Below, piece by piece: positions 20,597 to 22,043 of a stretch of 45,611 bases of DNA; the stretch's first letter is position 1; every line of letters begins with the position of its first letter. Under the pieces are notes generated by a model, which was given only the letters and a program-made list of their open reading frames with translations, did no database searches and was not told the DNA's origin. Source of the stretch: Erysipelotrichaceae bacterium (GTDB lineage Bacteria > Bacillota_I > Bacilli_A > Erysipelotrichales > Erysipelotrichaceae); NCBI GenBank assembly GCA_030531215.1, contig JAUNNY010000008.1, forward strand, positions 1 through 45,611. The letters are read 5' to 3'. A program made the translations under genes and the position numbers.

Positions 20597-20809
20597 TTAG
20601 TCTTTTTTATATTCTATTTCTACAGCTGGTACTTTTGCTGCAAGAAGCTGATCAAATAAAAGGTATTGTATTCCATAAATATACGCAACGCATGCACCCG
20701 AACCACCAGTTACATAGTTTAGTTCATCTTCAGATAATTCTTGAGCTTTTGTAGTGAAAGATTCACATTCTTGTTTTAAAGCTTTTAATTCTTCTTTAGT
20801 CTTTGCCAT
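20597..20809 (-). CDS. double-glycine leader peptide P1
   Basis: A 70-residue ORF, last in the P3-P2-P1 unit. Its leader differs from the other four: residues 1-36 end in ELSEDELNYVTGG, a classical bacteriocin-type double-glycine processing site (Gly35-Gly36). The predicted 34-residue cargo, SGACVAYIYGIQYLLFDQLL then AAKVPAVEIEYKKD, is hydrophobic with one cysteine (Cys40), unlike the charged cargos of P2-P5. AAGGAAG precedes the ATG, in the 30-base gap after P2. C39-type ABC exporters normally remove such leaders during secretion. Bacteriocin, immunity-linked or signalling roles are all possible; no exporter is in the window. Confidence 0.75.
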   Translation of the reverse strand: MAKTKEELKALKQECESFTTKAQELSEDELNYVTGGSGACVAYIYGIQYLLFDQLLAAKVPAVEIEYKKD

Positions 20810-20839
20810 AATTTTACTTCCTTGTTAAACAAAACTCTT

Positions 20840-21127
20840 TTATTTAACTCTATTTTTAAATAGTTGATTTAATCTTGTTGAAGAAACACGAAGCACAGAA
20901 CGAACTCTTTTTTCTTCTTTTAATGCATAATTAAATCTACCTTCCTTAAGTGCAGCTATATCTTCTTGTTCTTCTGACCTAAAAGCTTTTGCAATATAAG
21001 CTGAACCACCAAATGCTTGTGGATGTGATACACTTTCACTTAATACCTCTTCAGGTGAAACATTTGGAAGCATTCCACCATTGATTTCTTTTAATTCTTC
21101 ATCTGATATTATATGCTCTCTTGACAT
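20840..21127 (-). CDS. double-glycine leader peptide P2
   Basis: A 95-residue ORF whose leader ISDEELKEINGG (Gly17-Gly18) matches the other EINGG leaders. The cargo of 77 residues is charged and has a second Gly-Gly at 40-41 (HPQAFGGSAYIAK), which could be a second cleavage point, and a strongly basic C-terminal half (EEKRVRSVLRVSSTRLNQLF). No cysteine is present. It starts two bases after P3 with GAGGAG inside the P3 end, so it is cotranscribed. A helical, linear secreted peptide is the plainest reading. Confidence 0.75.
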   Translation of the reverse strand: MSREHIISDEELKEINGGMLPNVSPEEVLSESVSHPQAFGGSAYIAKAFRSEEQEDIAALKEGRFNYALKEEKRVRSVLRVSSTRLNQLFKNRVK

Positions 21128-21129
21128 AA

Positions 21130-21408
21130 TTATTTCTCCTCAATTCCAAATATTCTATAAGCAAGTGAGATAGCTGGTCTAATTCTACTGAATCTTTGAT
21201 TCTTTTGAACATCAGCAACCCCTGCTTTCGCAAATGATTCTGAATTCATTTCTTCACCAGCTACTGCAGCTCTTCTTACATCTGCTTCAGCAAAATCTTC
21301 TACTAAAACATCGCGTATTCTACGATAACCAGATGCTTTTTCAGAATCAATTTTTGCAACACCACCATTGATTTCATTTAATTCTTGATCTTTTAATTCT
21401 TTTGTCAT
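21130..21408 (-). CDS. double-glycine leader peptide P3
   Basis: A 92-residue ORF, first gene of the downstream unit. Leader: [16 protein letters not shown] (1-16), identical to P4 except at residue 2. The cysteine-free cargo carries the shared block [19 protein letters not shown] (52-70) followed by [10 protein letters not shown] and a hydrophobic end. GGGAGG stands about eight bases before the ATG, and the promoter block at 21433-21465 is a copy of the one before P5. The family resembles precursors of unmodified secreted peptides. No cognate transporter was found. Confidence 0.78.
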   Translation of the reverse strand: [92 protein letters not shown]

Positions 21409-21432
21409 GAGATTTTCCTCCCTTTACACAAT

Positions 21433-21465
21433 AATATACGTTAGATTGAAACAAAGGCTACAAAA
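21433..21465 (-). promoter_or_regulatory. promoter of the P3-P2-P1 unit (copy of the P5 promoter)
   Basis: Minus strand: TTTTGTAGCCTTT, 11 variable bases, ACGTATATTATTG, then TGTAAAGG. A possible -35 TTGTAG and -10 TATATT are 19 bases apart, exactly as before P5. I count 35 of 45 identical positions between the two blocks. Confidence 0.6.
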
Positions 21466-21494
21466 AAACACGTATTTTTTAAAAACGTGCTTTT
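21464..21494 (-). terminator. terminator of the P5-P4 peptide unit
   Basis: CACGT (21469-21473) and ACGTG (21485-21489) are the arms of an A/T-rich hairpin; on the minus strand it reads GCACGTTTTTAAAAAATACGTG followed by seven T, ending just before the P3 promoter. Confidence 0.65.
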
Positions 21495-21520
21495 TATTTT
21501 GAATGGCAATGGTATGATTA

Positions 21521-21796
21521 TTATTCCTTATGGCTTGTGCCTAGCATAGCCCATCTAGCATGAATCGTTTCAACCACTCTATTATTGATGAATCTATTGC
21601 TTCTTCTAACATTACCAACAGCTGCTTTAGCAGATGTTTCTGCATTTAGATTCTCTTTTTTATATCCGATAGAAGCTAAATCTAATTCATCCTTAGTCAA
21701 AATTGCACGATTCATTTCTTCTGCTTCACGTTCAGCTTTAGCAATAACACCACCATTGATCTCGTTTAATTCTTGATCTTTTAATTCTTTTGCCAT
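21521..21796 (-). CDS. double-glycine leader peptide P4
   Basis: A 91-residue ORF with leader [16 protein letters not shown] (1-16). The cargo contains [20 protein letters not shown] (48-67) followed by RF, the P3-like block, then [16 protein letters not shown]. It has no cysteine. It starts one base after the P5 stop, with AAAGGAGA inside the P5 end, so P5 and P4 are cotranscribed. A second EEMN sequence (26-29) earlier in the cargo echoes the block. Same family and same uncertainty as P3. Confidence 0.78.
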   Translation of the reverse strand: [91 protein letters not shown]

Positions 21797-21797
21797 A

Positions 21798-22043
21798 TTA
21801 TTTATTTTCTCCTTTCAAAGCAACAAGTCTTCCTAAAATTGGAAGTTCAGCAATTATACGAATAAAAACGCCATGTTCACTTCTTTTAACATCGCTTTCC
21901 CCTAATCTTACGAAGTGATGTTTTGAAACTACTTCAGAATTCATTTCTTCTTTAATCAATTCTCTAGTAAAATGTTGATTTGCTACTTCAACACCACCAT
22001 TGATCTCGTTTAATTCATTATCTAATAATTCAACTTTTGCCAT
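21798..22043 (-). CDS. double-glycine leader peptide P5
   Basis: An 81-residue ORF, first in the upstream unit. ATG 22043 is chosen because AAGGAGT sits at the right distance before it; an in-frame ATG at 22064 lies upstream of that site. Leader: [17 protein letters not shown] (Gly16-Gly17). The cargo has [11 protein letters not shown] (31-41) and SDVKRS (50-55), the P3/P4 block split by a five-residue insertion, then a hydrophobic C-terminus ([17 protein letters not shown]). No cysteine. It follows the terminator of the PHP operon. Confidence 0.77.
   Translation of the reverse strand: [81 protein letters not shown]

Follow-up and report, generated by a model that had tools for sequence, protein, structure and literature searches.

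Five double-glycine leader peptide genes of a Ca. Colivicinus genome as a probable part of a dispersed regulon with one NHLM-type exporter

Five small genes with double-glycine (GG) leaders lie side by side in a genome of Ca. Colivicinus, and no exporter gene adjoins them, which raises the question of how their products would leave the cell and what they would do outside it. The window analysed here, a stretch of 45,611 nucleotides (contig C15 in our survey of promoters and peptides), comes from a metagenome-assembled genome (MAG) of the Erysipelotrichaceae, genus Ca. Colivicinus (G000), which is 69% complete with 3.3% contamination; the regulon proposed below is spread over several of its contigs. 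The producer is a gut bacterium, probably with the horse as its host. The genes around the cluster are ordinary, encoding a PHP-domain phosphoesterase, a GH43-like protein, a DNA alkylation repair protein and purine enzymes, with a cyclophilin gene on the opposite side. A stand-alone IMP cyclohydrolase of the PurO type (a match below cut-off to the archaeal model TIGR01922) adjoins a PRK07106-type AICAR formyltransferase at 24876-26745 of the window, a split purH arrangement that is unusual for a Firmicute.

Peptide genes, leaders and transcription units

A preliminary description had marked five consecutive minus-strand reading frames of 70-95 residues, each with its own Shine-Dalgarno sequence, and all were confirmed where it had placed them: P1 (20597..20809, 70 residues), P2 (20840..21127, 95 residues), P3 (21130..21408, 92 residues), P4 (21521..21796, 91 residues) and P5 (21798..22043). 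An alternative ATG for P5 lies earlier, at 22064, and the Shine-Dalgarno sequence AAAGGAG favours 22043. The leader end ELNEINGG or ELKEINGG, reported for four of the five peptides, holds for P2-P5 (ELKEINGG in P2), whose leaders are short, at about 16-18 residues. The end ELNYVTGG given for P1 was also read correctly, yet the P1 leader, MAKTKEELKALKQECESFTTKAQELSEDELNYVTGG, belongs to a second, separate family with a length of 36 residues, and P1 is the best match in the genome to our model of that family (A4; E 5.8e-20). Model A4 has no relative on viral contigs, and a phage origin of the leader peptides was therefore dropped.

P3 scores 22.4 bits against the cerein 7B family model TIGR03949 (cut-off 21.5) and P4 scores 16.7 bits against TIGR01847 (cut-off 15.7), in both cases with the leader part only matched, and P1, P2 and P5 stay below the cut-offs of these two models. 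NHLP and Nif11 leader models from NCBIfam have no match in P1-P5 at E ≤ 1, and the leaders, read directly, do not contain the MAM pattern MMMPANx(8,11)VxGG. A DNA pattern built from the leaders of the P1-P5 cluster has 15 matches across the genome, and the control has none. The cargos of P2-P5 have no cysteine, as had been noted, and P1 has one. Searches of the P1-P5 cargos against Pfam and NCBIfam found no relative among known bacteriocins, the sole cargo match being PF00504 for P4, and PDB searches with the cargos of P1, P3 and P5 gave nothing usable. A PDB match of P2 to alpha-1-acid glycoprotein (E 1.2) is not significant and was set aside. The cargos of P1, P2, P3 and P5 accordingly have no recognisable source in Pfam, NCBIfam or the PDB.

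Beyond the leader, P3, P4 and P5 had been said to share a second block in the cargo. Shuffling supports this for P3 and P4 (none of 1000 shuffles reaches the score) and for P3 and P5 (1 of 1000), whereas the similarity of P4 to P5 alone is not significant, nor is that of P2 to the other cargos on its own. The suggestion that the block is an unusual second recognition element did not hold, as it is absent from P1, P2 and many other cargos that presumably use the same exporter. It looks like common ancestry within one paralogous subfamily, P3-P5, which has relatives at the syntenic locus of the sister species Ca. Colivicinus equi (G004, an Erysipelotrichaceae genome from horse gut).

Just upstream of both P5 and P3, with the start codons within about 25-30 bases, stands the motif TTGTAGCCTTT-N-ACGTATA, whose CGTATA we take to be the -10 element of an ECF-sigma promoter form. 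Its two matches on the minus strand of the window, TAGCCTTTTTATAAAAACTACGTATA (22068..22093) and TAGCCTTTGTTTCAATCTAACGTATA (21435..21460), point to two transcription units, P5-P4 and P3-P2-P1. Each predicted unit has a probable terminator on the same strand that was recognised by eye: CACGTTTTT...AAAAATACGTG followed by a T-run (21463..21495), absent from the list of the hairpin scan, for the first unit, and AAGACCG...CGGTCTT followed by a T-rich tail (20533..20566), with a loop beyond the limit of the scan, for the second. The TAGCC of the P5 promoter doubles as the 3' arm of a hairpin that the scan found at 22089-22105 and that is followed by T's. Two sites on contig C20 have the same inverted repeat, so that at three sites the TAGCC arm could be part of a terminator; we nevertheless take TAGCC as a promoter element, since the remaining motif sites have no such repeat.

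A shared promoter and a remote exporter

The promoter pattern has 14 sites in the genome and none in the control. Eleven lie directly before GG-leader genes on seven contigs, C15 (the two sites of the window), C16, C19, C20, C24, C28 and C37; one lies inside the exporter operon of contig C12, before a small GG-containing reading frame, and the remaining two, on C39, precede a lipoprotein and membrane proteins. No genome of the genus other than G000 and G004 has more than a single site, and in G004 the pattern recurs in the exporter operon and at the syntenic peptide locus, among other places. It is also present in a separately assembled MAG, G332, a member of the Clostridia from horse faeces.

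A search for C39 peptidases found none in the window, in keeping with the preliminary view that no exporter is near, and its sole match in the 69%-complete MAG is the exporter on C12 (PF03412, E 4.7e-36). A further exporter may exist that has no C39 match or that is encoded in the missing 30% of the genome. This protein scores 915.9 bits against NHLM_micro_ABC1 (cut-off 853.3) and the second ABC protein beside it 734.4 bits against NHLM_micro_ABC2 (cut-off 709.4). The order of genes is a short HlyD-like protein, NHLM ABC1, ABC2, an ECF sigma factor, the small GG-containing reading frame and a large protein (858 residues) of clostripain-like appearance that matches no NCBIfam model. The HlyD-like protein, of 158 residues, falls short of TIGR03794 (35 bits against a cut-off of 156.2) and covers only the first 64 of its 421 positions. 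NHLM ABC1 exceeds its cut-off in only 12 of 196 genomes of the family. In G004, the genes around the remnant of its exporter are the same as in G000, and a peptide cluster homologous to that of the window lies at the same chromosomal place, in synteny.

The small GG-containing frame behind the ECF sigma gene is conserved in G000 and G004, and a similar one occurs at the exporter of a further genome, G014 (L002:15054-15248, L072:1075-1302 and L088:7178-7393); it could encode an anti-sigma factor or a built-in substrate.

It is the shared promoter that ties the C12 exporter to the locus in the window, and its distribution, with sites in the exporter operon and ahead of GG-leader genes on seven different contigs, argues for a dispersed regulon with one exporter. 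This bears out the earlier expectation that the GG-leader peptides are served by a C39 exporter elsewhere in the genome. The further peptides, the promoter and the protein-like cargos described below lie outside the window and had for that reason escaped the first reading. We consider it likely that P1-P5 are part of a dispersed, co-regulated regulon of exported peptides with one NHLM-type exporter. P1-P5 would be precursors of exported, probably unmodified peptides, the lack of modification being plausible because no modification enzyme was recognised among the neighbouring genes examined. We infer that the ECF sigma factor of the C12 operon would activate all units together through the ECF-type promoter, that the C39 domain of the C12 exporter would recognise the leader and cleave it behind the GG, and that NHLM ABC1 and ABC2 would export the cargo.

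Several other gene families accompany the promoter or the GG-leader genes. Behind the ECF-like promoter or next to GG-peptide genes, G000 and G004 have two recurring families of small membrane proteins (L064:1590-2989 on C39 of G000; L020:6162-6704; L138:7371-8000 and L143:4588-5211 in G004), with C39_1590 paired to a protein on C51 of G004 (E 7e-20) and C39_2429 to one on C100 (E 8e-11). One membrane protein behind the promoter on contig C39 is related to a membrane protein of G004 that has the same motif upstream, and both families are candidate immunity proteins. A conserved family of GG peptides with two cysteines (SSYGKCL..VLKCY) also lies behind the promoter (L021:5413-5927 on C16 of G000; L070:1567-1821 on C50 of G004), and in G000 it has a paired copy that resembles a bacteriocin of the two-peptide type. 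A gene with a long leader directly behind the promoter in G004 (L092:3256-3560, that is C24:11255-11559) is frameshifted near leader residue 13, within a stretch of eight A, which may reflect a pseudogene, phase variation or an assembly error; a similar split gene on C28 of G000 is merely a run of N.

Cargos that resemble segments of conserved proteins

The stretches read yielded a pattern-made catalogue of leader-peptide frames: 39 for G000, 35 for G004 and, from a single contig, 9 for G332, so that the incomplete G000 genome holds at least 39 such genes. Their leaders are conserved and their cargos highly diverse, and many cargos are in-frame segments with a likeness to conserved proteins from eukaryotes and other inhabitants of the gut. 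At E ≤ 1e-3, 18 of 34 long-leader cargos match unrelated conserved protein families, as do 6 of 40 short-leader cargos. When the long-leader cargos were translated in their five other frames, the resulting 52 pieces free of stops had no match in either library.

The long-leader matches comprise six cargos like the SusC/RagA plug (L020:434, L136:1882, L136:2261, L140:595, L141:3212 and L124:1943; E 1e-9 to 6e-28), five like segments of UgpC-type or other ABC ATPases (L018:3734, 8574 and 8912; L124:205 and 1659), two like GGGtGRT (best E 8.9e-25), two like actin, and one each like NlpC/P60 (L018:3210, with the cysteine of DCSG changed to alanine), oxaloacetate decarboxylase beta and the Pmp repeat. 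The six short-leader matches are to 2Fe-2S thioredoxin-like proteins, Fer4, HSP70, the plug, L7/L12 and, in P4, the light-harvesting family. In whole-genome searches of G000 and G004, every SusC match is a GG-leader peptide, within or beside the plug region (96-216 of 981), with no full-length SusC, and across 273 genomes of the family the sole further match is a full-length gene in one MAG. The cargo at L124:2281 matches the C-terminus of actin up to its last residue (E 5.5e-5); a G000 peptide that ends in SGAQIIHRKCF finds actins in all 60 PDB matches listed, at E 0.49 when taken alone, and a third peptide resembles actin near 292-308. A resemblance of L133:636-806 and L136:2628-2879 to SecY, seen by eye, was supported neither by profiles nor by the PDB and was discarded.

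The same segments recur with differing borders across species: UgpC PKDRDIAM..QNYALYP, GGGtGRT LHPDNMAAGP, the SusC plug, the actin C-terminus and NlpC/P60 with DASG. The last occurs in two GG-leader peptides of unrelated organisms (L018:3210-3731 on C20 of G000, and the short-leader L131:1122-1526), in both of which the catalytic cysteine is replaced by alanine. A Ruminococcus sp. MAG from horse faeces (G335; L153, L157) has tandem GG peptides with other leaders and short cargos, and in one of these, MRELTPDELANVTGG.., the GGGtGRT segment AAGPSSYGMTDTMGRMHSDAQFA is the one that the Colivicinus peptides also have. Third-position GC of the cargos is 6-34%, which fits the 32% GC of the host contig and argues against recent foreign DNA as their origin. 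Compared with the UgpC genes of the producer itself, the DNA is about 80% identical over 75 bases, which shows that these segments are not fresh copies either.

Within the window, the cargo of P4 is the one with a recognisable resemblance. Residues 67-87 (21536..21598, minus strand) resemble plant Lhcb, with E 3.6e-4 against PF00504 for the whole protein and 2.8e-4 for the cargo alone; the cargo scores 21.9 bits, below the cut-off of 22.3, and covers 21 of 162 positions. By its sequence it is a segment-like resemblance to a light-harvesting chlorophyll-binding protein and not a member of the family. In the PDB, light-harvesting proteins make up all 60 matches listed of 74 (best E 0.015). A DNA pattern of the motif occurs once across the 273 family genomes, in P4, which speaks for uniqueness and not for significance, since we estimate that about one chance match is expected at that pattern length. 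The match of the end of P4 to a plant light-harvesting motif is modest, and suggestive rather than conclusive.

Outside the cell, it is most likely through their resemblance that the peptides would affect neighbouring organisms or the host, as competitors, decoys or mimic antigens. That the resemblance itself is used there is suggested by the recurring segments, the strict in-frame use, the host-like codons, the lost catalytic residues and the absence of complete domains. We hold mimicry as the function of the cargos only tentatively, at somewhat less than an even chance, and for the cargos of P2-P5, apart from the end of P4, a bacteriocin-like action is just as likely. A wider form of the idea, which we offer as speculation and would sooner doubt than accept, is that one dedicated exporter ships a library of peptides imitating segments of conserved, widespread proteins in its surroundings (the Bacteroidota SusC plug, transporter ATPases, DnaK, GGGtGRT, inactivated NlpC/P60, eukaryotic actin at its C-terminus and near 292-308, and the plant light-harvesting motif), which might either jam the complexes of competitors or show the host mucosa epitopes that it tolerates as self, food or commensal.

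Rival readings and known systems

P2-P5 could instead be classical unmodified, membrane-active bacteriocins with a variable middle and a C-terminal module around R-F-x(2-3)-R...LPI(I/L)GR, the match of P4 being chance or convergence. This reading comes close to an even chance without reaching it: the leaders match bacteriocin leader models, two-peptide units share promoters, the candidate immunity-like membrane proteins of both genomes accompany GG genes or follow the promoter, and the C-termini of P2 (+7), a C28 peptide (+4) and P3 (+3) are basic, with several helical hydrophobic moments near 0.4-0.5. Moments and charges are, however, unremarkable in P4, P5 and G4a; the light-harvesting match of P4, at the E-value given above, tells against chance, and the reading would not account for the fact that cargos like SusC, actin, ATPases and GGGtGRT follow the same class of leader. 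Plain bacteriocins are disfavoured by this breadth of cargo sources. A further reading is that fragments of other genes settle in the leader genes and are kept as debris without selection on the cargo. The shortness of the cargos, their varied boundaries and the many protein families that they come from would allow this, as would one apparent composite (L136:2628-2879), the common disruption of motifs and the frameshifted leader gene in G004. We think this unlikely: in frame, 18 of 34 cargos have a match, against zero for the 52 pieces from alternative frames, the borders of the recurring segments differ from species to species, and host-like third positions together with the identity of about 80% to the UgpC genes speak against recent insertion, so that the frame test and the amelioration disfavour plain debris.

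Two further readings appear improbable to us. One is that the peptides serve signalling or are surface proteins like MAM of Faecalibacterium, with a role in envelope structure or quorum sensing; MAM is the GG-leader cargo of a PCAT in a gut Firmicute and ends on the cell envelope (PMC12184118), and ECF control would fit an envelope or stress regulon, but MAM is one conserved protein where dozens of unrelated cargos here share common leaders, its MMMPAN leader pattern is missing, and beside the clusters read no receptor or response-regulator gene was recognised. The other, with comparably poor prospects, is that the genes encode RiPP precursors modified by enzymes encoded elsewhere, as NHLM exporters serve modified NHLP precursors that may lie far from their enzymes (Haft 2010, PMC2887384); against it stand the failure of the NHLP and Nif11 leader models to match P1-P5 and the lack of cysteine in P2-P5. 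If the exported regulon with segment-like cargos is functional, it would be a new route for a gut bacterium to address neighbours or its host, and the segments of the SusC plug, the actin C-terminus and the Q-loop region of UgpC should bind something or be recognised by it. Such peptides can be sought by the combination of this promoter, the leader and an NHLM exporter at a distance.

The transporters PCAT1 and LahT150 have the genes of their cognate substrates next to them, whereas the exporter here is remote. The proposed C39 cut after GG and export of the cargo by the transporter are otherwise as in PCAT1 of Clostridium thermocellum (PMC6959990) and LahT150 (PMC6363468). MAM with its PCAT (PMC12184118) likewise combines a gut Firmicute, a GG leader and a peptidase-containing ABC transporter, and differs in being a single abundant envelope protein with another leader, as opposed to dozens of unrelated cargos. 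Class II GG-leader bacteriocins and pheromones (TIGR03949 cerein 7B family, TIGR01847, ComC) share with P1-P5 the short GG leader, the small size, the small operons and the individual Shine-Dalgarno sequences, but the match is in the leader only, the cargos share nothing with known bacteriocins, and neither an immunity gene nor an exporter adjoins. In the literature available to us, from which many subscription journals are missing, we found no description of a GG-leader family with in-frame segments of conserved proteins from other phyla and kingdoms. The export side, in contrast, is of a known kind (NHLM/PCAT; PMC2887384, PMC6959990, PMC12184118). As in the NHLP/NHLM systems (Haft, Basu, Mitchell 2010; TIGR03796, TIGR03797, TIGR03794), ABC1 and ABC2 exceed the curated cut-offs beside a truncated HlyD-like neighbour, and many precursors with a conserved GG leader and hypervariable cargo are scattered away from the exporter; unlike in those systems, the leaders are not nitrile-hydratase- or Nif11-like, it is the cargo and not the leader that resembles other proteins, and an ECF-like promoter links the parts.
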